A stretch of 64,000 bases of DNA from Ensifer adhaerens (lineage in GTDB: Bacteria; Pseudomonadota; Alphaproteobacteria; Rhizobiales; Rhizobiaceae), in the NCBI RefSeq assembly GCF_028993555.1, contig NZ_CP118611.1, forward strand, positions 1,172,001-1,236,000. Direction: 5' to 3'. The notes below the pieces were generated by a model. That model did no database searches, was not told where the DNA came from, and saw nothing but the letters and a program-made list of their open reading frames with translations. The position numbers were made by a program, and so were the translations under genes. Position 1 is the first letter of the stretch. Every line of letters starts with the position of its first letter. Positions 1-48,836 of the stretch are shown in pieces.

Positions 1-650
1 ATGTCGACGGCTGTATCGGTGCGCTACTTTCGATCTCGCCTGCGAACGCCTGGCGTGTGAAGGGCATCGAGCGGGCGGATTCCGTCGCGCTCGACCCGCA
101 CAAATGGCTTCATGCCCCGTTCGAGGTCGGTTGCGCGCTCGTGCGGGACCGGGTGAAGCACCGGGACGCGTTCGCCGTTTCGCCTGAATATCTCCAGGGC
201 ATGTCGCGCGGCATCGCCTCCGGCGAGTGGCTCCACGAGTTCGGCCTGCAGACCAGTCGTGGCTTCGCGGCGCTCAAGGTCTGGATGGCGCTGATGGAGC
301 ACGGCGTTGCCAAGTTTGGCCGCCTGATCGACCAGAACATCGCACAGGCGGCCTTCCTTGCGGACCTCGTGCGCTCGCATCCGCCGCTGGAACTCCTCAC
401 GGAGCCTGAAATCAACATCGTCTGCTTCCGCTATGCGCCGGAAGGTCAAAGCGAGGAGCGGCTGAAAGAGATCAATGTCGAGATCATGTTGCGTCTGCAG
501 GAAACCGGTGTGGCAGCACTTTCCGACACAACGATCCGAGGGAGGCATTGCCTGCGTGCGGCGATCTGCAACCACCGTACCCGCTTGGAAGACCTCAACC
601 TGCTCATCTCGGAAGTATTGCGGCTTGGCAGCGAGGTTGCCCCGTCGTGA
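1..650 (+). CDS. PLP-dependent group II decarboxylase, C-terminal part (5' end outside window)
   Basis: The reading frame is open from base 3, before any start codon, so this is the 3' part of a longer gene. It encodes the end of a fold-type I PLP enzyme of the aromatic-L-amino-acid/glutamate decarboxylase group. The decisive motif is DPHKW, whose lysine (bases 102-104) forms the Schiff base with pyridoxal phosphate. The preceding VDGCIGA stretch fits the PLP-binding segment and the following ~180 residues fit the small domain. Family members are about 470-500 residues, so more than half is missing. Substrate cannot be told from this fragment. Nothing obvious follows until the insertion sequence near 1081. 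Confidence 0.85.
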   Translation, partial: VDGCIGALLSISPANAWRVKGIERADSVALDPHKWLHAPFEVGCALVRDRVKHRDAFAVSPEYLQGMSRGIASGEWLHEFGLQTSRGFAALKVWMALMEHGVAKFGRLIDQNIAQAAFLADLVRSHPPLELLTEPEINIVCFRYAPEGQSEERLKEINVEIMLRLQETGVAALSDTTIRGRHCLRAAICNHRTRLEDLNLLISEVLRLGSEVAPS

Positions 651-28362: not shown

Positions 28363-28561
28363 GGAACACTCCCCCCGTATTCGGTCCCTGAGGCCCGACA
28401 GACGTCACCGGCGGAGCCGCCCGACCCGCAGTCCTTCGCTGCGGCCTGAGCCCGGCCCCGTACATTGCGGTACATTCACCGGCTGTGGCCGACATAACCG
28501 GGATACCTCGCCGAACCAGATTGCGCTCGTCACCTCAACGGCCTCGAAAAGGAACGATCGC

Positions 28562-29320
28562 ATGCGCTCCCGAATTATCCCTACTCTTGCCCTAGCCTTT
28601 GCGACGAGCGTGGTTGCTTTCGCCGCCCAGGCGGCAGACATCAAGAACATCGTCATCGTGCACGGCGCTTTCGCCGATGGTTCGGGCTGGCGCCAGGCAA
28701 GCGACATCCTGGAGCGGCGTGGCTTCAAGGTGACAGTCGTGCAGGAGCCGCTGACGTCCCTTGCCGCCGACATCGAGGCGACGAAGCGCGTTCTGGACCT
28801 GCAGGATGGGCCGACCTTGCTCGTCGGTCACAGTTACGGCGGCATGGTGATCAGCGAAGCCGGGCATCACCAGAAGGTCGAGGGATTGGTCTACGTCGCA
28901 GCGTTTCAGCCCGACAAAGGCGAGGACCTGGCAACGCTTGCCGGCTCGAAACCGCCGGCGGCGATGAGCATCAAGGAAACCGCTGATGGCAAGTACCTCT
29001 ATCTCGACCCGTTGGCGTTTGCCGCCGATTTTGCCGCCGACCTCCCCAAGGCGGAGACTGCCTTTGCGGCGAAGTCACAAGTCTTTGCCGCCAAGGAGGT
29101 TTTCACTGCCAAGGCCGACGAGCCCGCCTGGCGGACGAAGAAAAGCTGGGCGATCGTGGCGACCGAAGACCGTGCCATCAATCCGGACCTTGAACGAAGC
29201 ATGGCGAAGCGCGCCGGCAGCCAGGTAAGCGAAATCAAGGCGAGCCACGCCGTCTTTGCCTCGCAAGCGGAAAAGGTCGCCAAGGTCATCGAGACCGCGG
29301 CCAAGGACGCCGGTAAATAG
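28562..29320 (+). CDS. Exported alpha/beta hydrolase
   Basis: 252 residues with an N-terminal signal peptide ending at AFAAQAAD. The core has IVIVHGAFADGSGWRQ (oxyanion HG), the nucleophile serine in LVGHSYGGMVISEAG, and a late histidine in KASHAVFASQ. It resembles the salicylate-esterase/hydroxynitrile-lyase-type hydrolases that bacteria export to the periplasm. Substrate unknown. AAAAGGAACG serves as ribosome-binding site. Confidence 0.87.
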   Translation: MRSRIIPTLALAFATSVVAFAAQAADIKNIVIVHGAFADGSGWRQASDILERRGFKVTVVQEPLTSLAADIEATKRVLDLQDGPTLLVGHSYGGMVISEAGHHQKVEGLVYVAAFQPDKGEDLATLAGSKPPAAMSIKETADGKYLYLDPLAFAADFAADLPKAETAFAAKSQVFAAKEVFTAKADEPAWRTKKSWAIVATEDRAINPDLERSMAKRAGSQVSEIKASHAVFASQAEKVAKVIETAAKDAGK

Positions 29321-35566: not shown

Positions 35567-35585
35567 TGCGAAATTGTGTCGAAAT

Positions 35586-35621
35586 GTATCCGAAGGTGCT
35601 TGCATTACATTCGCATGCAAG
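35586..35621 (+). promoter_or_regulatory. Possible autoregulatory site of the two-component operon
   Basis: A single GTATC (35586-35590) and an inverted repeat CTTGCAT-N9-ATGCAAG (35599-35621) lie ~130-160 bases before the response-regulator ATG. GTATC is the half-site repeated upstream of the facing operons, but only one copy is present here. Confidence 0.4.
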
Positions 35622-35748
35622 TCTGGATGTCGCGAACACACCGAGGACATATCCTGGGCGCCAATGAGACTGAGCGGATGTTCCCCGGCCCTGCCCAGGT
35701 GGTGCCGCAAGGACGCGAAGACCAGAACGGATTTGAGGAGTTTGCTCG

Positions 35749-36489
35749 ATGGAGCATATCGACCATGTGCTGATTGTCGATGACGACCGTGAGATCCGCG
35801 AACTCGTGTCTGGTTACCTCAAGAAGAACGGGCTGCGCGCAACCGCCGTCGCCGATGGGCGACAGATGCGCAGCTTCCTCGAGGGCGATACCGTCGATCT
35901 CATCGTGCTCGACGTGATGATGCCGGGCGACGACGGGCTCGTGCTCAGCCGCGAGCTGCGGGCCGGCAAGCACAAGGCGATCCCGATCATCATGCTGACG
36001 GCCCGCAGCGACGAGATGGACCGGATCCTGGGGCTCGAGATGGGGGCCGATGACTATCTCTCCAAGCCGTTCTCCGCGCGCGAGCTGCTTGCCCGCATCA
36101 AGGCGGTGCTCCGGCGTGCGCGCATGCTGCCGCCAAACCTCCAGATCTCGGAGGCTGGGCAACTGCTGCGCTTCGGTCAGTGGAAACTCGATACGACCGC
36201 CCGGCATCTGATCGATGCAGACGGCACGGTAATTGCGCTGAGCGGCGCTGAATATCGGCTGCTGAAGGTCTTCATCGATCACCCCCAGCGCGTGCTCAAC
36301 CGCGACCAGCTTCTCAACCTCACCCAGGGTCGCGAGGCCGATCTCTTCGATCGCTCGATCGATCTGCTCGTCAGCCGTGTTCGCCAACGGCTCGGCGATG
36401 ATGCCCGCGAGCCGACCTACATCAAGACGGTGCGCAGTGAAGGTTATGTCTTTTCGGTCCCGATAGAAATCGTGGAGGCGCGCGAATGA
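35749..36489 (+). CDS. OmpR-family response regulator
   Basis: 246 residues. The receiver domain (1-~120) has the acidic pair in IVDDDRE, phospho-acceptor Asp55 (IVLDVMMPG), the threonine in MLTARS and the lysine in LSKPFSARELLARIKAVLRR. A winged-helix DNA-binding domain follows (LSGAEYRLLKVFIDHP, RSIDLLVSRVRQRLG, IKTVRSEGYVF). It overlaps its sensor kinase by four bases. It is the best candidate to bind the GTATC repeats between 38.5 and 48.7 kb, since OmpR-type proteins favour direct repeats spaced by one helical turn. Confidence 0.95.
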   Translation: MEHIDHVLIVDDDREIRELVSGYLKKNGLRATAVADGRQMRSFLEGDTVDLIVLDVMMPGDDGLVLSRELRAGKHKAIPIIMLTARSDEMDRILGLEMGADDYLSKPFSARELLARIKAVLRRARMLPPNLQISEAGQLLRFGQWKLDTTARHLIDADGTVIALSGAEYRLLKVFIDHPQRVLNRDQLLNLTQGREADLFDRSIDLLVSRVRQRLGDDAREPTYIKTVRSEGYVFSVPIEIVEARE

Positions 36490-37820
36490 CGACGAGCGCA
36501 AACCCAGGAAGCATTCGACTGTGGCCGCGCACGCTCAGGGCGCGGCTCTTTGTTATCCTGCTGGCCGGTCTGACTATCGCGCATGTCATGTCGTTCACCG
36601 TGCTGTTCTTCGAGCGCTACATGGCCGCGAGATCGGTCATGTTCGATACGCTCGAAAACGAAATCGCCACGTCTATCGCCATACTCGATCGTCTGCCCGC
36701 GCCCGAGCGTGCCTCGTGGCTCCCTCGCCTGGACCGCGATAATTACGGCTTCCTTCTCGGACCTGGCGTTGCGGGCAATCCGTCGCTCGACCCGGCCGCC
36801 ACGGAGATCGCGACGAAGATCGAGCGGGCGACCGGCCTTCAATTTCCGGTCAAAGTCGAAACTATCCCGGGCGAACGTCGCCATCTGCAGGCGCATCTGA
36901 CATTGAGCGACGGTTCGCCGCTGACGATCGACGTCTTTCCCAAGGGTGTCATGCCATTGGCAAACTGGTTGCCCTTCGTGCTCGTGGCCCAACTCGTGCT
37001 TCTGCTCCTGTGCAGTTGGTTCGCCATGCGTCAGGCGGTGCGCCCGCTCGTCAACCTTGCCGCGGCTGCCGATACGCTGGACCCGAACCGGAATACGCCG
37101 CGCCTCAGCGAAACCGGACCCACCGAGGTCGCCTACGCGGCGACTGCGTTCAATGCCATGCGCGACCGCATTGCCCAGTATCTCGAAGAGCGGGTTCAGA
37201 TCCTCGCTGCGATTTCCCACGATCTGCAGACGCCGATTACACGCATGAAGCTGCGCGCCGAAATGGCGGATGATTTCGCCGACCGGGAGAAGCTGATCCA
37301 GGATCTCGGCCAGATCGAAAGTCTGGTCAAGGAAGGTGTCGCCTATGCTCGAAGCGCCCACGGCAATGTCGAAAAGGCGACACGCATCGATCTTGCCTCC
37401 TTTGTCGAAAGCCTTGTCTATGACTATCAGGACACCGGCAAGGCGGTTAGCACAAACGATGGCGATGGCGGCGCGATCACCACCCGGCCCCAGGCGCTGA
37501 GACGCATCCTTACCAACCTGGTCGACAACGCACTCAAGTTTGGTGGCAGCGCGGAGATCGAAGTCAGGCGGCTGGCGGACGACACGGTGACCATCAAGGT
37601 GCTCGACCGCGGACCCGGCATTCCCACTGACCAGCTGGATGCCGTACTCAAACCCTTCGTCCGGCTGGAGGATTCCCGCAACCGCGACACCGGCGGAACC
37701 GGCCTCGGCCTTGCCATTGCCCAACAGCTTGCGGCCTCCATCGATGCCTCACTGAAGCTGACCAACCGCGACGGCGGTGGATTGGTTGCAGAACTCGCCA
37801 TTCGTCGCCTTCCGGCATGA
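36486..37820 (+). CDS. Sensor histidine kinase
   Basis: 444 residues. First membrane span at ~18-42, a periplasmic sensor region of ~110 residues without a recognised fold, second span at ~160-180, then a HAMP linker. The HisKA motif AAISHDLQTPITRMK carries His245. The ATPase domain has NLVDNALKFGG (N box), DRGPGIP (G1) and GGTGLGLAIAQQLA (G2). Overlap with the response regulator (ATGA) shows a matched pair. A signal from the periplasm fits the exported proteins in the putative regulon. Confidence 0.95.
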   Translation: MTTSANPGSIRLWPRTLRARLFVILLAGLTIAHVMSFTVLFFERYMAARSVMFDTLENEIATSIAILDRLPAPERASWLPRLDRDNYGFLLGPGVAGNPSLDPAATEIATKIERATGLQFPVKVETIPGERRHLQAHLTLSDGSPLTIDVFPKGVMPLANWLPFVLVAQLVLLLLCSWFAMRQAVRPLVNLAAAADTLDPNRNTPRLSETGPTEVAYAATAFNAMRDRIAQYLEERVQILAAISHDLQTPITRMKLRAEMADDFADREKLIQDLGQIESLVKEGVAYARSAHGNVEKATRIDLASFVESLVYDYQDTGKAVSTNDGDGGAITTRPQALRRILTNLVDNALKFGGSAEIEVRRLADDTVTIKVLDRGPGIPTDQLDAVLKPFVRLEDSRNRDTGGTGLGLAIAQQLAASIDASLKLTNRDGGGLVAELAIRRLPA

Positions 37821-37889
37821 GGCACAACAAGGCGCGGTGACTTCACATGCCTGCGCCTCAGCCGCTCTCGGAACGACCAATCCTCCAAT

Positions 37890-37919
37890 AAAAAAAGCGG
37901 CGGCCTCATCGGCCGCCGC
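37890..37919 (-). terminator. Rho-independent terminator of ohr-like gene
   Basis: On the minus strand GCGGCGGCC-gatga-GGCCGCCGC is followed by seven T residues. It lies 46 bases after the OsmC-family stop and may also stop the convergent histidine-kinase transcript. Confidence 0.88.
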
Positions 37920-37964
37920 CTTCGTGGATCAAGCTACTGAAGGTTGCCGCAACCAGCATCCCCG

Positions 37965-38381
37965 TTAGATGAGATTGATCGTCACATCGATGTTGCCGCG
38001 CGTCGCCTTGGAATAGGGGCACGTCTGGTGCGCGGCATCGACCAACTGGCGCGCAACATCGGCGTCGATCCCCGGCAGGCTGACATTCAGCCGCGCCTGC
38101 AGGAAATAGCCTCCGTCGCGGTTACGCAGGTCCACCTCGGCATCGACGGCAAGGTCGGCCGGAAGCGCGACCTTCCGTTGGCCAGCCGCCAGTCCGATTG
38201 CACCGATGAAGCAAGCCGACCAGCCGGCGGCGAAAAGCTGCTCCGGGTTCGTCCCTGGCCGTGCGCTGCCGGGCGTCGAGAGCTTGACGTCCAGACGCCC
38301 GTCGTCGCTCTGGGAGGCGCCGTCGCGGCCGCCGGTTGTGTGGGTCTTGCCGGTGTAGAGTATCTTTTCAGCTTCACTCAT
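37965..38381 (-). CDS. ohr: Organic hydroperoxide resistance protein (Ohr/OsmC family)
   Basis: 138 residues from ATG 38381 (AAGGAAGAG upstream). Ohr features: ILYTGKTHTTGGRDG near the N-terminus, the peroxidatic cysteine in FAAGWSACFIGAIGL, and the resolving cysteine in HQTCPYSKATRGN. It reduces organic hydroperoxides with lipoylated protein as electron source. No ohrR regulator is adjacent; instead the gene has two GTATC half-sites spaced 10 bases apart, ~140 bases upstream. Confidence 0.95.
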   Translation of the reverse strand: MSEAEKILYTGKTHTTGGRDGASQSDDGRLDVKLSTPGSARPGTNPEQLFAAGWSACFIGAIGLAAGQRKVALPADLAVDAEVDLRNRDGGYFLQARLNVSLPGIDADVARQLVDAAHQTCPYSKATRGNIDVTINLI

Positions 38382-38521
38382 CGTGCTCTTCCTTTCGACA
38401 GGTGTTCCTTTCGGGCCCGATTGCCCCGTGCGACTGTCGAGACACAGATGGCGCGCGACAGGTGTATGGGATGTTTCAGCGACAAGCGGAAATGTGTGGA
38501 AGTCTGCCAAGTACCGGAGCT

Positions 38522-38536
38522 GATACACGCTGATAC
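38522..38536 (-). promoter_or_regulatory. GTATC direct repeat upstream of ohr
   Basis: On the minus strand GTATC-agcgt-GTATC, two half-sites with a 10-base period, 141-155 bases before the ohr ATG. The same layout and the shared GTGTATC occur upstream of the Tat-exported hydrolase (39854). Confidence 0.65.
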
Positions 38537-38633
38537 GAAGGCGGCCATCTGGTGCATGCGGATCGGCGCGCGTGAAACGCGCTCGGCCCGGCGTCTTTCC
38601 GTGCCGGGCAGTTTTCAATATGCATCGGCACGC

Positions 38634-38668
38634 AAAAAAGCGCGGGCCCGGTGAACCGGAACCCGCGC
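38634..38668 (-). terminator. Rho-independent terminator of Tat-exported hydrolase
   Basis: On the minus strand GCGCGGG and CCCGCGC enclose an inner hairpin (CCGGTTCACCGG) and are followed by a run of six T. It starts 26 bases after the hydrolase stop. Confidence 0.82.
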
Positions 38669-38693
38669 CTCCACGCAATCAGCGGGAGAAAAA

Positions 38694-39746
38694 CTAGAAG
38701 CGGTCGACGTCGATGATCGCTTGGGCGAAGGCGGACGGCGCCTCCTGCGGCAGGTTGTGGCCGATGCCGCCGGTGGCCAGCCGATGCTCGTACTTGCCGG
38801 AGAAGCGCTTGGCATAGGCTGCGGGGTCCGGATGCGGAGCACCGTTGGCGTCGCCCTCGAGTGTAATGGTCGGCACCGTAATGGTCGGGAACTGCGCGAG
38901 CCGCCTTTCGAGATCGTCAAACTTTGCTTCGCCCTCGGCGAGACTGAGCCGCCAGCGGTAATTGTGGATCGAGACATCGACATGATCAGGGTTTTCGAGC
39001 GCCTCGGCGCTCCTGTCGAAGGTGGCATCGTCGAAATCCCACTTGGGCGAAGCGAGCTTCCAGATCAGTCTGGCGAACTCCTTGTGGTTCTGCTTGTAGC
39101 CCTCATACCCCCGCTCGGTGGCGAAGTAGAACTGATACCACCAGGCAAGCTCGGCCTGCGGTGACAACGGCTTCCTGTTCACCTCCTGGCTGCCGATCAG
39201 GTAGCCGCTGACCGAGACCATCGCCTTGCAACGCTCGGGCCAGAGTGCGGCGATGATGTTGGCGGTGCGCGCACCCCAGTCGCAGCCGCCGATGACCGCC
39301 TGCTCGATCTTGAGCGCATCCATCATGGCAATGATGTCCGCGGCAATTGCCGCCTGTTGGCCGTTGCGCGGTGTGTCGGCGGAGAGGAACCGGGTCGTGC
39401 CGTAGCCGCGCAGATAAGGAACGATGACACGATAGCCGGCATCGGCCAGGAGCGGCGCCACATCCACATAGGTGTGGATGTCATAGGGCCAGCCGTGCAG
39501 CAGGATCACGACCGGCGCATCGCTTGCGCCAAGTTCGGCGTAGCCGACGTTCAAGACGCCAGCATCGATCTGCTTGAGGCTCGCGAAGGATTTGTTCGTC
39601 CCGGGAGTGACGGTCGGAAGGCGCGGCGCCTCGCCGTTTGCTGCTTGCGCCCTCGCGACGCTCACTGATGCGAACTGCGTCGCCGCAAGCGAGAGTGCGA
39701 GTGCGCCGAGGAAACGACGGCGTGGGTGATTGATTTCGTCCGACAT
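38694..39746 (-). CDS. Tat-exported alpha/beta hydrolase, epoxide hydrolase-like
   Basis: 350 residues from ATG 39746. The N-terminus has a Tat signal (HPRRRFLGALALSLAATQF) with cleavage near ARAQA. The fold is clear from VVILLHGWPYDIHTY and RVIVPYLRGYGTTRF. The nucleophile position is aspartate, in VIGGCDWGARTANIIAA, as in epoxide hydrolases and haloalkane dehalogenases; the late histidine is in GGIGHNLPQEAP. It acts in the periplasm on an unknown epoxide-like or halogenated substrate. It has its own GTATC repeat. Confidence 0.88.
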   Translation of the reverse strand: MSDEINHPRRRFLGALALSLAATQFASVSVARAQAANGEAPRLPTVTPGTNKSFASLKQIDAGVLNVGYAELGASDAPVVILLHGWPYDIHTYVDVAPLLADAGYRVIVPYLRGYGTTRFLSADTPRNGQQAAIAADIIAMMDALKIEQAVIGGCDWGARTANIIAALWPERCKAMVSVSGYLIGSQEVNRKPLSPQAELAWWYQFYFATERGYEGYKQNHKEFARLIWKLASPKWDFDDATFDRSAEALENPDHVDVSIHNYRWRLSLAEGEAKFDDLERRLAQFPTITVPTITLEGDANGAPHPDPAAYAKRFSGKYEHRLATGGIGHNLPQEAPSAFAQAIIDVDRF

Positions 39747-39853
39747 TGGCTGCCTCCGGTGAACTGAGCTGTCATCAGAGATGGAGCACCTGTGTAACGC
39801 GGTCGTGTGCTTTGCGGCTCCTATTGCAAGCAAGTGTAGAGTACCAAGCGGCG

Positions 39854-39868
39854 GATACACGGCGATAC
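39854..39868 (-). promoter_or_regulatory. GTATC direct repeat upstream of Tat-exported hydrolase
   Basis: On the minus strand GTATC-gccgt-GTATC, again a 10-base period, 108-122 bases before the ATG at 39746. It lies between the AraC gene stop and the hydrolase, so the hydrolase can be transcribed separately. Confidence 0.65.
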
Positions 39869-39903
39869 AAATTTCGGCAGAAGGAGACCAATCGCTGTGC
39901 CGT

Positions 39904-40845
39904 TCAGGCGATGCCTTCGCGCGCATTGCGTCGGATCGTCTGTGGCGGCTGTCCGAGCGTGCGCAGAAAAGCCCGACGCATGCGGTCGCTGTCGGCAAAA
40001 CCGGTCTCCTCGGCAATCACGTCCATCGAGTGGCGTCCCTGCTCCATCAACAGGCGCGCCGCTTCCACGCGCAGATGCTCGACCGCTTTCGCCGGCGACT
40101 GCCCGGTTTCCGAGCGGAAGGCACGGCTGAACTGCCGCGCACTCAGGCCTGCGGCGTCCGCGAGCTCCTCGACCGACAAGACGCTGCGCAGGTTCGCCTT
40201 GGCATAGTTGACCGACTTCTGGATGCGGTCCGACTTCGGATCGAGTTCGAGCAATGCGGAAAACTGTGACTGGCCGCCGGCGCGCCGATGATAGACGACA
40301 AGCTTGCGCGCCACCTGGCGCGCGACATCCTCGCCATGGTCCTTCTCGATCATCGCCAGCGCCAGATCGATGCTGGCCGTCATGCCTGCCGAGGTCCACA
40401 CGCTGCCATCGACGATGAAGATGCGATCCTCCTCGACCCGCACCTCCGGGAAACGCTCCCGCAACTGGCGCGCAAACACCCAATGAGTCGTGGCGCGGCG
40501 CCCGTCCAGCAATCCGGACTCAGCGAGGATGAATGCACCGGTACAAGGCGCAGCCACCCGCCGCGAGGCCTTGAGCGCCTGACGCGCGAACGCGACCAAC
40601 CCTGACGTTACCGGTTCGATCTCGGTGCCCGCTCCAAACATGACGGTCTCGTAGGCGGTATAGTCGAAGGCCTTCGTCAGCACGCCGAAACCGGCGGACG
40701 ACTTGATCTCGCCGCCGACCTCGGACAGCAATTCGATCTCGTAGACCTGTTCCCCAAGCGTCAGATTGGCGACCTCGAAGGCAGTGACCGCCGCAAACCC
40801 CATGAGCTGAAATCCTGGAAAGACAACGTAGCCAATCCTGTGCAT
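39904..40845 (-). CDS. GlxA-type AraC-family regulator with DJ-1/PfpI domain
   Basis: 313 residues. Residues ~1-190 are a DJ-1/PfpI domain (RIGYVVFPGFQLMGFAAVTAFEVAN, APCTGAFILAESGLLDGRRATTHW). Residues ~210-310 are two AraC helix-turn-helices (LSVEELADAAGLSARQFSRAFRSETGQSPAKAVEHLR; MDVIAEETGFADSDRMRRAF). Such regulators sense small metabolites or reactive carbonyls. It lies amid the putative regulon and is an alternative or additional controller to the two-component system. Confidence 0.92.
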   Translation of the reverse strand: MHRIGYVVFPGFQLMGFAAVTAFEVANLTLGEQVYEIELLSEVGGEIKSSAGFGVLTKAFDYTAYETVMFGAGTEIEPVTSGLVAFARQALKASRRVAAPCTGAFILAESGLLDGRRATTHWVFARQLRERFPEVRVEEDRIFIVDGSVWTSAGMTASIDLALAMIEKDHGEDVARQVARKLVVYHRRAGGQSQFSALLELDPKSDRIQKSVNYAKANLRSVLSVEELADAAGLSARQFSRAFRSETGQSPAKAVEHLRVEAARLLMEQGRHSMDVIAEETGFADSDRMRRAFLRTLGQPPQTIRRNAREGIA

Positions 40846-40923
40846 GTCATACCACTCCTGTCCGGAATGATCGCTTATAGCAGATTTGCGCCATGAAGGG
40901 AATGTGGCGGCCTTGGGACTGCC

Positions 40924-41562
40924 TCATTCGGGCAACGGTTTTCCGGCATGCTCTGCGACCATGTGGGCGGCATACCAATCCGGCCAGTTGTGGTCGTGTT
41001 GTCCACCGTGGCGCTTCTCGTGTTCGCCGTGCGCGGCGGCGGCGCGACGCAGCGCCGCCGCAAGATCGGCCACCGAAGCGAATTCCGTGGCATCGGCGTC
41101 CACGCGGCCAGGCAGGCGCTCGGTCACTTCCTGCAGCAGCCAGCCGTTCCCATCGGGATCGCTGAAGGTCGCATAGGAGCGGTAGCTGCTACGGGCCGGA
41201 TCACGGCCGCTGATCGCCGGTTTCCCAGGACCTTCGCGATGGAAGATTTCGCTGACCTCCGCACCGCCCTTGATGAGTTGCGAACGAGCCGCCTCGATAT
41301 CAGAGACGACCAGATAGAGGCCGCTCGCCGATCCAGGAGGGGCCGAGGTCAACCCCGTGCCGAAGTGGATGGACGCCGGCGAGCCGGGCGGCGTGAACTG
41401 GACGACCCGAAACGTATCGCCGACCGGGAAATCCGCATCGAGCCGCCAACCAAGATTGGCGTAAAAGGCCCTGGCGCGGTCAACATCCGAAACGGGTATG
41501 AGCGCGACTTCGAACTTAAAGTCGACGGTTTGCGCTCTCTTTTCGCTACCTGCACTTGTCAT
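40924..41562 (-). CDS. VOC-family (glyoxalase-like) protein
   Basis: 212 residues from ATG 41562 with AAGGAGAAG upstream. The first ~135 residues are a vicinal-oxygen-chelate domain (VALIPVSDVDRARAFYANLGWRLDADF, FSDPDGNGWLLQEVTERLPG). The C-terminal ~70 residues are rich in His, Ala and Glu (AAAAHGEHEKRHGGQHDHNWPDW) and could bind metal. It is the third gene of the SDR / epoxide-hydrolase-like / VOC operon and might detoxify reactive carbonyls or epoxides. Confidence 0.85.
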   Translation of the reverse strand: MTSAGSEKRAQTVDFKFEVALIPVSDVDRARAFYANLGWRLDADFPVGDTFRVVQFTPPGSPASIHFGTGLTSAPPGSASGLYLVVSDIEAARSQLIKGGAEVSEIFHREGPGKPAISGRDPARSSYRSYATFSDPDGNGWLLQEVTERLPGRVDADATEFASVADLAAALRRAAAAHGEHEKRHGGQHDHNWPDWYAAHMVAEHAGKPLPE

Positions 41563-41615
41563 GACACTTCTCCTTTCTTGCAACAGCGGGGCGCGCTCTC
41601 GCACGCCCCTTTCTG

Positions 41616-42959
41616 TCAGCTCGGTTGACGCAGTGACTTGAAGGAAGCTCTCAATTCATCGACCAGGGCTTCCGGCTGTTCCCAGGCTGCAAAATGTCCG
41701 CCCTTGGCGAGACGATTATAATGGATAAGCTTCGGGAACGCCTTCTCCGCCCAGGACTTCGGCGCCTGATAAAGTTCGTCCGGGAAGGCGCTGACAGCCA
41801 CGGGAATCTGGATGCCCTTCGGCTGGAAGAACGCGAGCTTGTTCTCCCAGTAGAGACGCGCCGATGACACGGCAGTATTGGTCAGCCAATAGAGCGTGAT
41901 GTTGTCGAGCACATCATCGCGGCTCAGGCCCTCCGACTGACCGTCGAAGACGCGGGCGATCAGTTCGTAGCTACGAGCGTCATGGTCCAGCATCCAGCTG
42001 GCAAGCCCGATCGGCGAGTCCTCGATGCCATAAAGCGTCTGCGGACGCTTGCTCATCTCCTGCGCATAGGACAGGCCGTTCTTGTAGAAGAAATCGAGCT
42101 GGTCATAGGCACGGCGCTCGTCGGCCGAGAGATTGGATGGCGCTGGACCACCGGCGTCGAGGCTCTTCTGGATCTCGGCCGGGACGGTCGCCGGCATGTT
42201 TGTGTGGATGCCCAGCAATCCGGCCGGCTGCTGCAGGGCCATCTGTTCCGTGACGGCATCGCCCCAGTCACCGCCCTGCGCGATATAGTGGGTATAACCC
42301 AGCCGTTGCATCAGGATCGCCCAGGCCCGCGCGATCCGCACCGGATCCCAGCCGCGTTCGGTGGGCTTGCCGGAGAAGCCGTAGCCCGGGAGCGAGGGAA
42401 TGACCACGTCGAAGGCATCGGCTTCGCTGCCGCCGTGCGCCGTCGGGTTCACGAGAGGATCGATGATTTTCAGCTGTTCGATGATCGAGCCCGGCCAGCC
42501 ATGGGTCACGATAAGAGGCATCGCGTTCTTGTGCTTCGACCGCACGTGGATGAAATGGATGTCGACGCCGTCGATGTTGGTCACGAACTGCGGCAGGCCG
42601 TTGAGCTTCTTCTCGACCCTGCGCCAATCGTACTTGGTGGCCCAATAGTCGGCGAGCTTTTGCATGGTAGCGAGTTGCACGCCCTGGGTGCCATCGTTGA
42701 CCAATTCGCGGTCGGGCCACTTGGTCGCCTGAATGCGCTGCTTAAGGTCGGAAAGCGCCGCATCGCTGGCATGAAACTGGAATGGGCGGATGGATTCGTC
42801 TGCCGCAGGCTTTGCGGCAGCGGTGATCTGGGCACCGCCCACCGAGGAGGCATCTGCGGCATGGGCGGCGAACGGCGGAAGCAGGATCGCGATCGCTCCG
42901 GACAGCGCGAAGGCGGCCAAGCGACTGCTCTTGGCAGTTGGCAAATAGCGTCTGGACAT
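41616..42959 (-). CDS. Exported epoxide hydrolase (EHN-type) alpha/beta hydrolase
   Basis: 447 residues from the third of three consecutive ATGs (42965, 42962, 42959), best spaced from AGGAGA. A signal peptide ends at FAAHAADA. The N-terminal epoxide-hydrolase lid domain (EHN) covers ~60-170 (IRPFQFHASDAALSDLKQRI, WRRVEKKLNGLPQFV). The oxyanion HGWPG is in LIVTHGWPGSI, the nucleophile aspartate in IAQGGDWGDAV, and the late histidine in AKGGHFAAWEQPE. Exported to the periplasm, in one operon with SDR and VOC genes. Confidence 0.9.
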   Translation of the reverse strand: MSRRYLPTAKSSRLAAFALSGAIAILLPPFAAHAADASSVGGAQITAAAKPAADESIRPFQFHASDAALSDLKQRIQATKWPDRELVNDGTQGVQLATMQKLADYWATKYDWRRVEKKLNGLPQFVTNIDGVDIHFIHVRSKHKNAMPLIVTHGWPGSIIEQLKIIDPLVNPTAHGGSEADAFDVVIPSLPGYGFSGKPTERGWDPVRIARAWAILMQRLGYTHYIAQGGDWGDAVTEQMALQQPAGLLGIHTNMPATVPAEIQKSLDAGGPAPSNLSADERRAYDQLDFFYKNGLSYAQEMSKRPQTLYGIEDSPIGLASWMLDHDARSYELIARVFDGQSEGLSRDDVLDNITLYWLTNTAVSSARLYWENKLAFFQPKGIQIPVAVSAFPDELYQAPKSWAEKAFPKLIHYNRLAKGGHFAAWEQPEALVDELRASFKSLRQPS

Positions 42960-43046
42960 CATCATTCTCCTGGTTCGAGTTGAGGCGATGCCAGAGGCAT
43001 CGCCAGGTAATTCCGGGATGGGAGGAGCCCGGAAGCAGATCGGGGG

Positions 43047-43847
43047 CTATCCCCCGATGTTGTAGCGAGCGGCGGGTGCGCTCCTGGAAAGGTTCGGCAT
43101 GAGTTTTTGGCGGGCCGCCTCATAGGTTGCCCAATCTGCGGCATCCGGCAGCGCCGGGATCGTGATCACCTCGCCTTGGTCGAGACCGGCAAGTGCGGCA
43201 TCAACCATGTCTTCGGCCCGCATGACGATCTCGCTTGGAACATGTTCGAGCGGAGTGCCGGCAATGCCCCAGAAATCGGTCGCAGTCGCCCCCGGCAGCA
43301 CGGCCTGGATGCGGATGTTCTTGTCGGCAAGTTCCTTCTGAAGCGACAAGGTGAAGGCCAGCACGAAGGCCTTCGTGCCACCGTAGACGCCGTTCAGAAG
43401 CTCCGGCGCAACGCCGACGATCGAGGCGATGTTGATGATCGTGGCGGCGCCACGTGCAGCAAATCCGGGCGCGGCCGCATAGGTCAGGCGCGTCAGCGCG
43501 CTGACATTGAGCGTGATCATCTCCTCCATCTTGTCGACATCGGACGCGAGCAGCGGCGCAGTAGCACCAACCCCGGCGTTGTTGATCAGCACCGTGATGC
43601 TCGCGTCACTTTTGAGGATGTTCTCGACCCGCCGGACATCGTCCTTGTTGCCGAGATCCGCAGCGACGACTTCGATGGCGCGTCCCGTCTCGTCCGCCAG
43701 GCGGCTGGCGAGATCATTCAATCGCTCGCGGTTGCGGGCAACGAGGATCAGATCGAGGCCGCGGCGGGCCAGGCGATCGGCATAGATTGCACCGATACCG
43801 GATGATGCGCCGGTGATGAGTGCCGTACCTTTGGAATTTCTGCTCAT
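43047..43847 (-). CDS. Short-chain dehydrogenase/reductase
   Basis: 266 residues from ATG 43847 (AAGGAG upstream). NAD(P) motif TALITGASSGIGAIYADRLA, NNAG in LINNAGVG, active-site serine/tyrosine/lysine region NIASIVGVAPELLNGVYGGTKAF (Y-x3-K). It resembles YqjQ/DltE-type SDRs. First gene of its operon; three GTATC/GATAC half-sites stand upstream at 44011-44086. Confidence 0.92.
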   Translation of the reverse strand: MSRNSKGTALITGASSGIGAIYADRLARRGLDLILVARNRERLNDLASRLADETGRAIEVVAADLGNKDDVRRVENILKSDASITVLINNAGVGATAPLLASDVDKMEEMITLNVSALTRLTYAAAPGFAARGAATIINIASIVGVAPELLNGVYGGTKAFVLAFTLSLQKELADKNIRIQAVLPGATATDFWGIAGTPLEHVPSEIVMRAEDMVDAALAGLDQGEVITIPALPDAADWATYEAARQKLMPNLSRSAPAARYNIGG

Positions 43848-44217
43848 TTCAAGCTCCTTTGCCTTGGTTGGAGCCTCGATGTTAGGGTGAAACGTCGACG
43901 TCTCAAATGTCATAATTCCAGCACTTTACGCCATTGCGCCCGCACCGGCTTTCTACGACCGCATGGGGCCGGATGCGAACCAAATTTCGCCGTGACCATG
44001 CGTGCGCGGTGTATCCGAGATGTGTTCGGGAGCGGCGTCTGTGTATCTCAATGTTCAAAAGGGCGAGCGCGACTGCAGACCGATACGCAATGCTCAGGGG
44101 TTCCGCGGCGGCACCTTGCGAGTCTGCAAAAGCGAACGGGGCCGACGCAGTGTCGACCCCGCTCCAGAACATCCACACGCCGATCGGCTTCGCTGGAAAA
44201 CACAGCGGACCGACGGG
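43848..44217. other. Regulatory gap before the SDR operon
   Basis: No gene seen in these 370 bases. It contains the three half-sites listed at 44011-44086, and presumably the SDR operon promoter between them and 43870. Confidence 0.6.
44011..44086 (-). promoter_or_regulatory. Three-site GTATC/GATAC array upstream of SDR operon
   Basis: On the plus strand GTATC at 44011, GTATC at 44043 and inverted GATAC at 44082, i.e. steps of 32 and 39 bases. The bases around the first (GTATCCGAGATGTGT) align with those at 45910 and 48647. The nearest site is 164 bases upstream of the SDR ATG. Confidence 0.65.
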
Positions 44218-45543
44218 TCAGAGATTGTAGAGGCTGCGCGCAAACGCGCCGATGCCTATTTCGTCGAGGAGGCTGAGCGGAGCACGGAAAGTCACACGGG
44301 CCACACCCGGGTGGCGGCCGATTTCGATGGCCCCGGCAATGGTCGCGCGGTTCATCACTTCCGGAACGCTGATACCAAAGAGCTCCGCAGCGCGTTCCAG
44401 CCCGTTTTCGGTTGCTTCATTCAGGTTCGCACCGGTGCCGATGAAGGTGACCGGGGCATCGGCCTCGATGTCGCGAACACCATGCTTACGCGCAAGCGCT
44501 TCCACCCGGGTGCGTTCTGCATCGTCGAGCGGACGCGCCAGAAACGGCACGTCGTCCAGAACCGGCAGCAGGATCGGTCCGTCGATCTTGAGCCCCTTGA
44601 TGACGTGAACCTCCAGCGTCACTGTCCCGGAGACATCACAGGTATGGCCAGCGATTTCGCCGTCTCCCTGCATTGCGTGCATGTCGCCCATATAGACGCC
44701 GCCACCCGGAACTTTGACCGGGCATATCAGGATCGCCCCTTCCCGCACCGTGTTCACGTCCAGATGGCCGTCGGTCTTGTGCTTGGTGAGTTCCTCCGCC
44801 GTGAGGGAATAGGCATGCGGAGCATCGGTCAGGAACTGGCCGAAATCGCCGGCATTGTGTGAGTCCGGCATCGCCTTCGAGGGCGTGGTGCCCAATTGGC
44901 CTAGGAAGGGCCGCAGCCGTGTGGCAACACCGACGAGATCGGCCGGCGCGAAGGTCAGGATCGGATGCTGGATCGAGCTGTCAGGCAAGGCCATCAGGCG
45001 ATCCGCATCTGTGGCGAAGGCCTCCGCGACGGATTTCCCGACGGTGAGGCCGACCCGGCGCTCATCGTCGAAGGCGATCGTGTAGCCATTGGTGAAGATG
45101 AACGGCGTCGCGTCCGCACCGCAGTTTTCGCAGCGGATCGCGGCCTGGCCGATGCCCTCCACCCTCGTGCGCGGCCATTGCGTGCCGCAGCCCGGGCAAA
45201 CGGCGGCACAGAAGGGATCACCATTGAAGCGGCCCACCACCACCTCGTCGTTTCCGGAGGCCGTCGCCGCCGAGGTGACGACCAGCGATCGGATCCGGAT
45301 GGCGATCGCATCGCCGACCTCGGCGCCCGCAACGGCCACCGGCCGCGTGACCTCATGTCCGCCGCGGATTTCGGGTGTGATCATTGGCCCCCAACATCCC
45401 GGCGCCGTGTTCGCGATAATGACACCGCCATCGGCGACGGGGCCGAGCATCGGCTCCGCCGGGTCGAGTATCCCGTTGGTCAACTCGTTGACGAATACCG
45501 TCCGAGCAGCGACGGTATGGCGCTCTCCTGCTTTCTCAAGCAT
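44218..45543 (-). CDS. Acetamidase/formamidase family protein with zinc-ribbon insertion
   Basis: 441 residues from ATG 45543 (GGAGGAAAG upstream). The FmdA/AmdA fold is recognised by NTAPGCWGPMITPE, VPGGGVYMGDMHAMQGDGEIAGHTCDVSG and ITGAGANLNEAT-like IGTGANLNEATENG. Between residues ~115 and 150 there are two Cys pairs (CPGCG and CENCG), a zinc-ribbon insertion. It hydrolyses short-chain amides to ammonia and acid; the natural substrate is unknown. It follows the small secreted protein gene on the same transcript. Confidence 0.9.
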   Translation of the reverse strand: MLEKAGERHTVAARTVFVNELTNGILDPAEPMLGPVADGGVIIANTAPGCWGPMITPEIRGGHEVTRPVAVAGAEVGDAIAIRIRSLVVTSAATASGNDEVVVGRFNGDPFCAAVCPGCGTQWPRTRVEGIGQAAIRCENCGADATPFIFTNGYTIAFDDERRVGLTVGKSVAEAFATDADRLMALPDSSIQHPILTFAPADLVGVATRLRPFLGQLGTTPSKAMPDSHNAGDFGQFLTDAPHAYSLTAEELTKHKTDGHLDVNTVREGAILICPVKVPGGGVYMGDMHAMQGDGEIAGHTCDVSGTVTLEVHVIKGLKIDGPILLPVLDDVPFLARPLDDAERTRVEALARKHGVRDIEADAPVTFIGTGANLNEATENGLERAAELFGISVPEVMNRATIAGAIEIGRHPGVARVTFRAPLSLLDEIGIGAFARSLYNL

Positions 45544-45606
45544 GTGACTTTCCTCCGTGTTGATTGGTTTCAAGGGTTGGTGCCGCCGGTCTTCACGGCG
45601 TGATCG

Positions 45607-45822
45607 TCAATCGAGGAACGGGCTGGAATGCTCCTCATGCGGCGCTTCCTGCAGCAATCCTCCGTCCTCAAACGCGGCCACCTGCGGCCGAACGGTGGCC
45701 GTTGCGGACGTCGAACCGGCGACGAGCGCGGCAAGAAGCGAAGGCTCTCCCGGATCGCTATCCCAAGCGCATGGTGCGGCCGCGAGGACGGCGATGGCGA
45801 AAGCTGTTGCGAAGATACGCAT
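45607..45822 (-). CDS. Small secreted hypothetical protein
   Basis: 71 residues with strong GGAAGGAG upstream. A signal peptide (MRIFATAFAIAVLAAAPCA) leaves a mature peptide of ~50 residues, acidic at the end (EAPHEEHSSPFLD). No family recognised. It is the first gene after the GTATC array at 45910-45986 and precedes the acetamidase by 63 bases. Confidence 0.7.
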   Translation of the reverse strand: MRIFATAFAIAVLAAAPCAWDSDPGEPSLLAALVAGSTSATATVRPQVAAFEDGGLLQEAPHEEHSSPFLD

Positions 45823-45909
45823 GATGGCTCCTTCCGTTGATCATGACTGCTGCGGCTCGCCCGTTACCGAGGACCCGAGCCTTGCTCGCAGACAGAGTGT
45901 CCCTTGGGC

Positions 45910-45986
45910 GTATCGCGGATGTGTGCAGGCAGCCGCGAAACTGTATCCTTATGTAGAAGGCTGACTGGCTCGGCCCCTCCCGATAC
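45910..45986 (-). promoter_or_regulatory. Three-site GTATC/GATAC array upstream of small secreted protein
   Basis: GTATC at 45910, GTATC at 45943 and GATAC at 45982 on the plus strand (steps 33 and 39). The 16 bases GGCGTATCGCGGATGT around the first are identical to those at 48645-48660. The nearest site is 88 bases from the ATG. Confidence 0.7.
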
Positions 45987-46055
45987 GCGTGTGCAGCGCA
46001 CGCGCTCGTCGACGCACCCTGTCGTTCTTAAGGATTCCCGCAAGCTCGCGACCAG

Positions 46056-46793
46056 CTACGACGCGCTGCCTGCGACAAGCACCGGCTTCTCGCGATAGAA
46101 GTCCGGGAACAGATGGTGCAGCGCTCCGATCTTCGGTTGCTCGTAGATGACCACATAGGGCTGGCCTGGATTGTTGTAGACGTAATCCTGGTGATAGGCC
46201 TCCGCTTGATAGAAAGCCTTTCCAGGTTCGACCGTCGTCGCAAGCGGCCGAGCAAAGACGGCCGCCGCGGTCAGTTGCGCAATATAGTCGGAGGCGACCT
46301 TCGCCTGCGCTTCATCGCGCGGGAAGATCGCCGATCGGTATTGCGGTCCGCTGTCCGGCCCCTGCCCGTCGACCTGTGTCGGATCATGTGCGACCGAGAA
46401 GTAGATCTCGAGCAGTCGCCCATAACTGATCTTCTTGGGATCGAAAGTGATCTCCACCGCTTCGGCGTGGCCGGTGGTTCCGGTTTCCGTCAGTTCATAG
46501 GTTGCCGTCTCCGCGCTGCCGCCGGCATAACCGGACCTGACGCCCGTGACGCCGACCACATGCTGAAACACGGCTTGCACACCCCAGAAGCAACCGCCTG
46601 CGAGCACGGCCGTCTGCGTTGCCTCCGTTGAAGCGACATCATGGAGCGCCTTGGGAATGGGTTTGACCTGCTGCGCCGCCGTCTGCTCGTCCAAGGCGAG
46701 GATCAGCCCGCCGCCGACTATTGCCAGTGCGACGAGCAGACGTCGGCCAAGGGCGGGCATGCGGCGCCCGTGCTGCTGTTGTTTGTCGGCCAT
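46056..46793 (-). CDS. msrA: Membrane-anchored/periplasmic peptide methionine sulfoxide reductase A
   Basis: 245 residues. A hydrophobic N-terminal segment (~17-34) after Arg residues acts as a signal or anchor, so the enzyme faces the periplasm. The MsrA domain starts near 60 with the catalytic Cys68 in AGGCFWGVQAVF; GYAGG, GHAEAVEITFDP, and EAYHQDY follow. It repairs methionine-S-sulfoxide in oxidised envelope proteins. It lies 10 bases after the DipZ-like gene, whose thioredoxin domain is the obvious reductant. Confidence 0.94.
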   Translation of the reverse strand: MADKQQQHGRRMPALGRRLLVALAIVGGGLILALDEQTAAQQVKPIPKALHDVASTEATQTAVLAGGCFWGVQAVFQHVVGVTGVRSGYAGGSAETATYELTETGTTGHAEAVEITFDPKKISYGRLLEIYFSVAHDPTQVDGQGPDSGPQYRSAIFPRDEAQAKVASDYIAQLTAAAVFARPLATTVEPGKAFYQAEAYHQDYVYNNPGQPYVVIYEQPKIGALHHLFPDFYREKPVLVAGSAS

Positions 46794-46803
46794 CTCTCAA
46801 CTC

Positions 46804-48576
46804 TCATCCAAATGTGAAAACGAAGGCTTCTGCGCCGGGCTCGAGAAAGCGGATCTCGAACGTCCGTTCCCGCGCCGCGCCTGATTGGCGCACAAGCTGA
46901 TAGAGGCGCGTCTCCGTGACCGTCCCCCTTCCGGACGCGTCGATATCCGAGCCACGGTCTGCTGCGGGCGGCGCGCCATCCACCGTCACCTGAAACCGGA
47001 TCGGTTTGCCGCCGGCGCCAGGCCCCAGAACCAAGTGCAGATCGCGGGCGCGAAACCGGTAGGTGATACCGCCGCCCGCTTCGTTGACACGCGCCTGCTG
47101 GGCTCCGACTGTCCAGTTGCCGGTGAGGCCCCACTCGTTGAGACGCGGGCTATCGATCGTGTACCGCTTGGCGCTGTCTGCGGAGACGCCTTCCGGAGAC
47201 ACGAAATTCGCGGCCCTCTCATACCCGACATAGGTCTCGCTCGATCCGAGGCGGGAAAGGTCGGGCGCGGCTTCTGCGCCTTTCGCATCCGGTTTGACGT
47301 AGTTTTCTTCGGCCTTCCGCTTTCCCGCGGCCTCCGCCAGCAAATCCTGGATCACCCGCTCGGAACCCTCATAGTCGCCTTCGCCGAAATGCGTGTAGCG
47401 GATCTGCCCCTCGGCATCGATGAAGTAGTGGGCCGGCCAGTAGCTGTTGGAGAAGGCGCGCCAGATGGCGAAGTCGTTGTCGATCGCCACCGGGTAGGTG
47501 ATCTTGAAGTCCCGCACCGCCTTCTCGACGTTGCCGATCTGCTTCTCGAAGGCAAACTCCGGCGCGTGCACCCCGATCACGACCAGGCCCTGGTCCCGGT
47601 ACTTCTCCGCCCAGGCCCGGACATAGGGGATGGTGCGGATGCAGTTGATGCAGGAGTAGGTCCAGAAATCGACAAGGACGACCTTGCCGCGAAGCTCGGC
47701 CGGCGTCAGCGGCTTGGAATTCAGCCACTGAACGGCGCCGTCGAGCGACGGGAACGACCCTTCGACCGGCAGATCGCTGCGATAGTCCGCCTGTCGCGTA
47801 TCCTTCGCGGCAACGGTCATGCGCGTGCTGGCGACGTCCACAGGTGACGCATCGCTGCGCAGGCGATCGAGAATCGACTGTTCGAAGCCCGACGTACTCG
47901 CATAGGAAAGCTGCGCCAGCAGGCCTGTGTCGAGGCCAAGGGCGATGGCCGCGACGCCGGCAAGGACTGCGATCCCAAGGCCCTGCCTGATCCGGTCGCC
48001 GATGCCGAGGAAACGCTTCATCGCCGCAAACACCCGTGCGCCGGCAAGAACGGCCAGCGCCAGCGAGGTCGCGGCACCGGCAGCATAGGCGACAAGCAGC
48101 AGCGTCGTCTGCACGTTCGCACCGTTAAGCGCCGCGCCGGTCAGCACCAGGCCGAGCACCGGCCCGGCGCAGGGCGCCCAGAGCAGTCCGGTCGCCACAC
48201 CGAGCAGGATAGCCCCACCGATGCTGCCCTTCTCCCCGGTCGTGGCCTTTCTCGACAGCCGATTGCCGAGTGCGACGAGCGGGCCGGTCACGAAAGCCGA
48301 GGCCCGCGTTGAGAGCAGCGTTACGCCGAAGACGGCGAGCAGCGCGATCGCGGCATAGCGGCCAAACGCGTTCGCCTGAACCGCCCAATTGCCGCCGAGT
48401 GCTGCAAGCGAGGCGATCGCCGCAAAGGTCACGATCTTGGCAAGTAGCATTGGAAGAATGCTGGTGGAAAAGGGTTGGCCGGCGCGGGCAAACACGAATG
48501 GCAAGACCGGCAGGATACAGGGACTGACGATGGTCAGCACGCCCGCAAGATAGGCTACAACAAAGAGGATCATCAT
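46804..48576 (-). CDS. DipZ-like thiol:disulfide protein (CcdA membrane domain + thioredoxin + C-terminal beta domain)
   Basis: 590 residues from ATG 48576 (GGAGAG upstream). Residues ~1-245 are a CcdA/DsbD-like membrane domain with the redox cysteines in TIVSPCILPVLPFVFAR and LLWAPCAGPVLGLVL. A TlpA-like thioredoxin domain follows, with active site WTYSCINCIRT. The last ~150 residues are a beta-rich domain as in mycobacterial DipZ. It moves electrons from cytoplasmic thioredoxin to the periplasm, probably for MsrA. First gene after the GTATC array at 48647-48731. Confidence 0.92.
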   Translation of the reverse strand: MMILFVVAYLAGVLTIVSPCILPVLPFVFARAGQPFSTSILPMLLAKIVTFAAIASLAALGGNWAVQANAFGRYAAIALLAVFGVTLLSTRASAFVTGPLVALGNRLSRKATTGEKGSIGGAILLGVATGLLWAPCAGPVLGLVLTGAALNGANVQTTLLLVAYAAGAATSLALAVLAGARVFAAMKRFLGIGDRIRQGLGIAVLAGVAAIALGLDTGLLAQLSYASTSGFEQSILDRLRSDASPVDVASTRMTVAAKDTRQADYRSDLPVEGSFPSLDGAVQWLNSKPLTPAELRGKVVLVDFWTYSCINCIRTIPYVRAWAEKYRDQGLVVIGVHAPEFAFEKQIGNVEKAVRDFKITYPVAIDNDFAIWRAFSNSYWPAHYFIDAEGQIRYTHFGEGDYEGSERVIQDLLAEAAGKRKAEENYVKPDAKGAEAAPDLSRLGSSETYVGYERAANFVSPEGVSADSAKRYTIDSPRLNEWGLTGNWTVGAQQARVNEAGGGITYRFRARDLHLVLGPGAGGKPIRFQVTVDGAPPAADRGSDIDASGRGTVTETRLYQLVRQSGAARERTFEIRFLEPGAEAFVFTFG

Positions 48577-48646
48577 CGTCTCTCCGCACTGGATCAATGC
48601 CCGAGGCAGTGATCACTTGATATGTGCGGCAGAGGACCATCGTGGC

Positions 48647-48731
48647 GTATCGCGGATGTTTCCGATCGATGGAGAATTGTATCTCAGTGCAACAGCCGCG
48701 GTGCTTGCGGGGTGGCGGCACGTCGCGATAC
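48647..48731 (-). promoter_or_regulatory. Three-site GTATC/GATAC array upstream of the dipZ-like/msrA operon
   Basis: GTATC at 48647, GTATC at 48679 and GATAC at 48727 on the plus strand (steps 32 and 48). The nearest site is 71 bases from the ATG. The first site shares 16 identical bases with the array at 45910. Confidence 0.7.
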
Positions 48732-48836
48732 ACGCTTACGGCCAGTTGTTCGCTCGAACCGGCGGGCACTAGGGACCAAAACAAAGGAGGCCAGGACGGG
48801 CCCGGCCTCGATTGATAGGCAGCGTATGCTATCAGC

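Follow-up and report, generated by a model that had tools for sequence, protein, structure and literature searches.

A candidate response-regulator regulon with two-sided operators in Ensifer adhaerens

The 64,000-nucleotide stretch of Ensifer adhaerens DNA considered here (contig NZ_CP118611.1, positions 1172001-1236000, in a genome of 7.77 Mb; hereafter the window) harbors the genes for an OmpR/PhoB-type response regulator (RR) and a sensor histidine kinase (HK). It probably represents the core of a small regulon, in which the RR and its membrane HK would control about seven promoters, their own included, via an upstream operator (UO) and a downstream operator (DO). We assign this reading a probability of about 0.77; binding of the RR to these sites is predicted. 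The sites, their spacing and conservation, their link to the RR, and the additional promoters are established by computation. Most likely, the RR activates from the UO, is tuned by the DO, and thereby controls DipZ, MsrA, Ohr, exported hydrolases, and a small exported protein.

Conserved half-sites within one promoter architecture

An earlier inspection of the sequence (the original prediction) had reported the direct repeat GTATC-N5-GTATC upstream of ohr and of a hydrolase gene with a twin-arginine leader. Both copies are found on the minus strand (38522-38536 and 39854-39868, respectively) and exceed chance, with two seen against 0.02 expected and none of 100 shuffles reaching two. The three half-sites it had described before the short-chain dehydrogenase (SDR) gene, the small protein/acetamidase genes, and dipZ/msrA are likewise present, with steps of 32/39, 33/39, and 32/48 bases, respectively, as are the 16 identical bases in the first sites of two of these promoters. 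The proposed distances to the start codons stand in part: they range from 71 to 141 bases with the ATGs used here, and 165 bases are reached only with a later SDR start. The RR promoter had been credited with a single GTATC. This literal count is right, but a degenerate repeat, GTGTC-N5-GTATC at 35576-35590, is only one mismatch off and was overlooked; TACAT follows 15 bases past it. The five promoters originally named hold, and the RR promoter and a further promoter at 28.5 kb also belong to the set. The latter carries a site at 28455-28509, preceding a gene for a second, apparently exported alpha/beta hydrolase, followed by ChrB-like and chromate-transporter genes.

Conservation was assessed around the HK genes of relatives. 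A search with the HK yielded the best 80 of 238 relatives, from which up to 10 kb on each side were taken (1.65 Mb in total); these loci belong mostly to Ensifer/Sinorhizobium and Rhizobium, but also to Agrobacterium, Phyllobacterium, Bosea, and others, with seven from Cupriavidus. Two GTATC words at spacing 5 occur 75 times, in 55 of the 80 loci, so the motif is conserved in relatives with the orthologous HK. The ten-base step agrees with the period of 10-11 bases in OmpR/PhoB-family operators. Spacings 27 and 28 are found 25 and 32 times; together, these 57 occurrences represent the 32-33-base step of what are called step-type sites here, an enrichment that bears out the step noted in the window. 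The 38 other spacings have a mean of 1.47 and a maximum of 10, and anagrams of GTATC in the same layout reach at most 20. The half-sites are thus real and far beyond chance. Even in the betaproteobacterium Cupriavidus, the exact UO is present in six of the seven loci. One exact direct repeat sits within the HK gene (locus L037), so not every match is an operator.

The typical UO reads TTGTATC-N4-TGTATC and occupies the position of the -35 box, mostly followed after 15-16 bases by a -10-like TACAYT. The DO reads GGACACAT-N4-GATAC, lies in the opposite orientation, and starts about 61 bases after the UO. Among 73 distinct direct-repeat sites, TACA stands at base 30 from the first GTATC, i.e. 15 past the repeat, with its letters conserved at 59 to 81%. 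Step-type promoters show the complementary picture: across 99 of them, the 60 bases preceding the middle G[AG]TACA contain 86 occurrences of TTTGT, TTGTA, or TTGTG (overlapping words counted separately), of which 61 sit at -41 or -40. These stretches also hold 44 GT..TGT pairs, 38 lying at -39 or -38. A CTACA-like word is seen at the corresponding place in many step-type sites. The alternative that GATACA and the 32-base step form a -35/-10 pair was considered by eye and dropped; TACA follows the first GTATC by about 30 bases in most direct repeats.

The spacing of the two operators was determined from 99 upstream matches of at least 11 bits in the 80 loci and the window, searching up to 300 bases on either side for the best reverse-oriented step-type 20-mer. 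In 91 of the 99, the DO starts at +57 to +66 from the UO, in 69 of those at 61 or 62 (random anchors, 37/1940; forward-oriented 20-mer, 4/99). The same spacing is seen in 69 of the 77 RR, unlabelled, and Cupriavidus promoters whose DO was outside the training set. At a cut-off of 12 bits, all eight Cupriavidus UOs have the best DO position at 59-61, one with a negative score. Two separate layouts had been proposed for the direct repeats and the three-half-site promoters. This division is not upheld, since the downstream element is equally distant from the upstream one in both: the UO and a reversed DO about 61 bases further on are one architecture. As 61-62 bases are nearly six helical turns, both operators would lie on the same face of the DNA, and the predicted -10 places the DO at about +16 to +35. 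The offset of 71 at dipZ is about one helical turn beyond the other offsets in the window (61-63).

Profiles and the link of the sites to the response regulator

Two profiles were built from sites outside the window, close relatives such as L037 included: R1 from 53 step-type sites and R2 from 66 direct repeats plus the next 22 bases. The L037 repeat inside the HK, three step-type pairs, repeated sequences, and four direct repeats overlapping step-type sites were left out. In the 80 loci and the window, R1 and R2 give 131 and 77 matches of at least 15 bits (training sites included), whereas a reversed and a shuffled copy (one of each) yield no such match. When the best 150 of 1287 candidates in the source genome were scored with R1, four matches with E-values of 3e-8 to 1.4e-4 emerged, all in the window, and the next had an E-value of 0.17. 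Three of the four are sites of the original prediction, and the fourth is that at 28.5 kb. With R2, the hydrolase promoter is the best match in the genome (E 2e-4).

In the bacterial family, an RR orthologue is encoded in 10 of 121 genomes, including the source genome. DipZ occurs in the same ten and only partially in two others, and TTGTATC-N5-GTATC is found in 6 of these 10 compared with 10 of the 111 remaining genomes. R1 was applied to 46 genomes, of which 22 have the RR and 24 do not. The set lacking the RR consists of 23 genomes out of those 111 (ten chosen for their TTGTATC-N5-GTATC matches) and G005, which is of the same genus as the source and has a best RR match of only 3e-42. All 22 RR-positive genomes contain R1 matches, the worst best E-value being 1.7e-6, compared with none of the 24 others at E<0.001; three of these lie between 0.0046 and 0.025. 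Sites of at least 10 bits, within 1.5 kb on each side, accompany 15 of 16 RR-orthologue loci and none of 14 paralogue loci. The single orthologue locus lacking a site is a second copy in G007, 78% identical. Of the 24 RR-negative genomes, 11 contributed a total of 14 ohr homologues, all without a site (best, 5.6 bits).

The sites also accompany targets distant from the RR. In G008, 1.86 Mb of contig (0.49 Mb if it is circular) separate the RR from a dipZ-SDR-epoxide hydrolase cluster with sites of 35.8 and 19.1 bits. G014 has another dipZ-msrA-epoxide hydrolase island, about 0.8 Mb away, with three sites of 18-21 bits as well as two of lower score. Furthermore, a site of at least 15 bits is present in 75 HK loci, of which 58 lack an AraC gene and 59 a LysR gene within the locus DNA; AraC or LysR as reader of the site was rejected on this co-occurrence. 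Since the sites track the RR among genomes, at orthologue loci, and at distant targets, and most loci do without AraC, the RR is the common factor. The proposal that the adjacent RR/HK pair governs the set is thus supported by co-occurrence.

The RR likely controls its own promoter as well, since six relatives (L042, L043, L048, L053, L055, and L064) have an exact repeat before the RR. Cupriavidus plantarum (L070, 9170-12233) harbors two adjacent RR/HK copies, whose RRs are 82% and 71% identical to that of the window, each RR being preceded at 80-95 bases by a direct-repeat site on the opposite strand. Two further observations concern other places. In G003 (L189, about 3886-3935), a strong step-type site of 32.0 bits precedes an EamA-like transporter gene (by eye), possibly a further target; the site and the RR are on different contigs. 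In G008 (L188, 2128-3013), a homologue of the hydrolase at 28562-29320 is split over several open reading frames, adjoined by a weak site of 12.5 bits.

Target genes, proposed mechanism, and rival explanations

The RR and HK genes, on the plus strand, face minus-strand genes encoding Ohr, an alpha/beta hydrolase, an AraC/DJ-1 regulator, a glyoxalase-like protein, an epoxide hydrolase, SDR, acetamidase, MsrA, and DipZ (Table 1). Judged by its domains, a receiver and a winged-helix Trans_reg_C, and by the adjoining membrane kinase with HAMP, HisKA, and HATPase_c, the RR belongs to the OmpR/PhoB family. At a cut-off of 12 bits, DipZ and Ohr are the most constant targets, with sites at 64 of 74 and 39 of 53 loci, respectively. 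Alpha/beta hydrolases (identified by Pfam), MsrA, epoxide hydrolase, SDR, glyoxalase-like protein, cytochrome P460, and the small exported protein are occasional targets. This set looks suited to repairing oxidised thiols, methionines, and lipids of the envelope.

Table 1. Genes and putative operators in the window (positions in the window; scores in bits for R1 and R2; offsets from UO to DO in bases)
Feature	Position	Strand	Evidence or remarks
Additional step-type site	28455..28509	-	R1 25.4 bits; DO 28490-28509; no clear UO
Second alpha/beta hydrolase, exported (by eye)	28562..29320	+	Pfam
ChrB_C/rhodanese protein	29524-30345	+	Pfam; after second hydrolase
Chromate transporter	30347-31753	+	Pfam; after ChrB_C/rhodanese protein
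LysR-like gene	at 33311		by its sequence
RR promoter, degenerate UO and -10-like TACAT	35573..35610	+	R2 13.7 bits
RR promoter, weak DO, offset 61	35634..35653	+	best matrix position, score 3.4
OmpR/PhoB-type RR	35749..36489	+	Pfam Response_reg PF00072 3.7e-30, Trans_reg_C PF00486 1.7e-20
Sensor HK	36486..37820	+	Pfam HAMP, HATPase_c; HisKA 25.6 bits, just below cut-off 26.9
Ohr-family peroxiredoxin	37965..38381	-	NCBIfam TIGR03561
ohr promoter, DO, offset 61	38459..38478	-	score 9.4
ohr promoter, UO GTATC-N5-GTATC	38505..38539	-	13.0 bits; TACAYT missing at usual place
Alpha/beta hydrolase, twin-arginine leader and GxDxG nucleophile motif (both by eye)	38694..39746	-	Abhydrolase_1
Hydrolase promoter, weak DO, offset 61	39791..39810	-	score -0.7, position only
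Hydrolase promoter, UO and -10-like TACACT	39833..39871	-	R2 24.6 bits, top of whole genome
AraC/DJ-1 type gene	at 39904		
Glyoxalase-like protein	40924-41604		after SDR
Epoxide hydrolase	41616-42965		after SDR
SDR	43047..43913	-	
SDR promoter	44008..44055	+	DO 44008-44027, middle GATACA; upstream GTATC 44082-44086, offset 62; R1 24.6 bits
Acetamidase/formamidase family	44218..45573	-	
Small exported protein, 71 amino acids, PCAWDxxPxEP motif	45607..45822	-	similar small open reading frames at same place in nine relatives' loci
Small protein/acetamidase promoter	45907..45960	+	DO, middle GATACA; upstream GTATC 45982-45986, offset 63; R1 36.3 bits, top of genome
MsrA, apparent export signal (by eye)	46056..46793	-	Pfam PMSR
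DipZ-type membrane protein with thioredoxin domains	46804..48576	-	DsbD_TM 24.9 bits (below cut-off 27.1), AhpC-TSA, Thioredoxin_10
dipZ/msrA promoter	48644..48697	+	DO, middle GATACA; upstream GTATC 48727-48731, offset 71; R1 35.3 bits

Some of these genes deserve a remark of their own. About 200 bases separate the second hydrolase gene from the ChrB_C/rhodanese and chromate-transporter genes, which may possibly share its promoter. Open reading frames of 60-80 amino acids with the same start as the 71-residue exported protein follow the same type of site in nine relatives' loci, with a shorter cousin in L073. The dipZ leader (48562-48652, minus strand) can fold so that the ribosome-binding site is paired; 14 pairs are seen in 21 sequences, with both-sided changes at two pairs, and a second layer of control may be present here.

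A direct repeat replacing the -35, together with a conserved -10 and no good -35, is the promoter layout required for class II activation by regulators of the OmpR type, with PhoB as the model. In the proposed mechanism, the HK would sense envelope oxidants via Met52/Met156 and Cys176, and the phosphorylated RR would bind the UO and recruit RNA polymerase to promoters with a poor -35. The same RR would bind the DO, thereby damping or gating the promoter. The DO might serve as a damper at high RR levels or as a gate with resting RR on both sides; a role as an RNA element appears less likely. Given its orientation, its fixed distance, and the shared half-sites, the DO is more plausibly a DNA site bound by the same RR. 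Repair of oxidised thiols, methionines, and lipids would fall to DipZ, MsrA, Ohr, the exported hydrolases, and the glyoxalase-like protein. In the alignment of the HKs from the 80 loci and the window, Met52 and Cys176 are each present in 81 of 81 sequences and Met156 in 73 of 81. The membrane location of Cys176 was judged by eye and from a weak structure model (predicted template modelling score, pTM, 0.39), and a fold search with this model of the sensor domain returned, among the matches shown, kinase cores or ill-fitting whole kinases. A wider proposal is held tentatively, at somewhat below even odds: opposed RR dimers six turns apart would bracket the -10 and the start at nearly every promoter in alpha- and betaproteobacteria, a closed two-sided OmpR-family design driving envelope repair after chlorine or other oxidant damage via MsrA-DipZ instead of MsrPQ.

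It has to be considered whether another regulator, i.e. the AraC/DJ-1 or LysR-like protein or a distant global regulator, reads the motif, the two-component genes being merely nearby. Both genes do occur in the cluster, and each genome encodes 51-70 RR-like matches. This explanation is nevertheless improbable: most site-bearing HK loci lack AraC and LysR, RR-negative genomes (E<0.001) and RR-paralogue loci are uniformly devoid of sites, and a direct-repeat step of 10-11 bases fits OmpR-type dimers. Still less credible is the idea that the elements are the -35 and -10 of an alternative, extracytoplasmic function (ECF) sigma factor common to these genes. Such factors control msr genes. In other alphaproteobacteria, they respond to oxidants or metals (PMC3511200, PMC3420878). 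Against this stand the direct repeat with its ten-base step, the reverse copy about 61 bases away, and the way in which the elements track the RR.

Two alternatives leave the RR in charge. The DO may be an RNA element of the 5' leader or a part of the core promoter, with the RR binding the upstream repeat alone. This would suit the predicted -10, which places the DO inside the transcript, and the dipZ leaders of the Ensifer/Rhizobium group, which can fold over the ribosome-binding site (both-sided changes at 2 of 14 pairs). We regard it as unlikely, since the DO repeats the same two words, GTATC and TGTGTC, in inverted orientation and at a constant distance, does so ahead of genes that are unrelated, and is seen in alpha- as well as betaproteobacteria. 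A stronger contender, though a somewhat doubtful one, is a regulon as described that answers to a signal other than oxidants, e.g. chromate, copper, or aldehydes or epoxides from plant or microbial partners. The chromate-transporter and ChrB-like genes after one target and the epoxide hydrolase and glyoxalase-like genes in the set would fit this. However, the most constant targets, DipZ and Ohr, are redox proteins, and the HK has an invariant methionine and membrane cysteine, although neither this nor the target content names the signal.

Several points weigh against control of the set by the RR as proposed. We infer RR binding and the direction of control from sequence and co-occurrence, and the signal is a guess from gene content. 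Within the source genome, R2 gives the RR and ohr promoters E-values of only 0.68 and 1.1, among four unrelated matches of 0.3-2, and the genome searches score the best candidates only. The DOs of the RR and hydrolase promoters in the window score so low (3.4 and -0.7) that position alone speaks for them, and in the ohr promoters of Ensifer, TACA is missing from its usual position. Many Ensifer/Sinorhizobium dipZ promoters have an unrecognisable UO, though the downstream half is strong. Five of the 80 HK loci are without any site of at least 15 bits, and at 12 bits no site is found at 10 of 74 dipZ and 14 of 53 ohr loci, some of them at locus ends. By their coordinates, two of the RR-positive genomes coincide with training loci (G010 is the strain of L037, G011 that of L040), so the result for all 22 is partly built in, which does not hold for the negative side. 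A whole-genome motif search had been suggested as a check, and its outcome depends on the pattern used. The exact 15-mer is found six times, two of them in the window, compared with five times in the reversed control, and was rejected as a genome-wide regulon marker for this lack of enrichment; the strong R1 matches among the candidates scored are confined to the window. What makes the sites specific is the fuller pattern together with their conservation.

Comparison with known systems

A search of the open-licence literature in PubMed Central found no description of this regulon or operator. The operator resembles those of CpxR and other OmpR-family regulators in its five-base half-sites, direct repeat, ten-base step, and class II position, the CpxR operator being GTAAA-N5-GTAAA. 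It differs from them by the second, reversed repeat at a fixed distance at nearly every promoter. With the OhrR-ohr system, the regulon would share the ohr gene as a target; here, however, ohr has its operator in common with dipZ, hydrolases, and the RR, and ohr homologues of RR-negative genomes lack it. No MarR-like protein was found among ten scanned window proteins, the rest of the window being unscanned and an OhrR box not sought. The sigma-F regulon of Caulobacter and the ECF regulon of Bradyrhizobium have msr genes among their targets, and their promoter elements differ from those described here. Both are comparable alphaproteobacterial responses to metals or oxidants (PMC3511200, PMC3420878). 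Unlike the proposed regulon, they use sigma factors instead of a phosphorelay.

The closest parallel in working may be HprSR (YedVW) of E. coli, from whose operator (that of HprR) the one found here differs. Two periplasmic methionines of HprS sense hypochlorite, a membrane cysteine is needed for signalling, and msrPQ is induced (PMC10151825). By analogy with this account, the pair in the window would respond to oxidants and induce the repair of envelope methionine sulfoxide, with Met52, Met156, and Cys176 of its HK paralleling the two periplasmic methionines and the membrane cysteine (PMC10151825). The resemblance appears to be one of working, not of membership, because the HK is closer in sequence to CpxA (6.5e-31) and EnvZ (2.1e-26) than to HprS (2.5e-13), a comparison covering solved structures only and the kinase core. 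The targets differ as well, being MsrA, DipZ, Ohr, and hydrolases instead of MsrPQ; no msrPQ was seen among the scanned window proteins, the genome not having been searched for it. The analysis thus assigns a likely function, a set of targets, and an exact operator to a two-component pair that is shared by rhizobia and Cupriavidus and of which no description was found. The fixed two-sided operator poses a mechanistic question, namely why a second, reversed site should lie just beyond the start point. If the oxidant reading is true, the regulon would represent an independent solution to the problem that HprSR and MsrPQ solve in E. coli.

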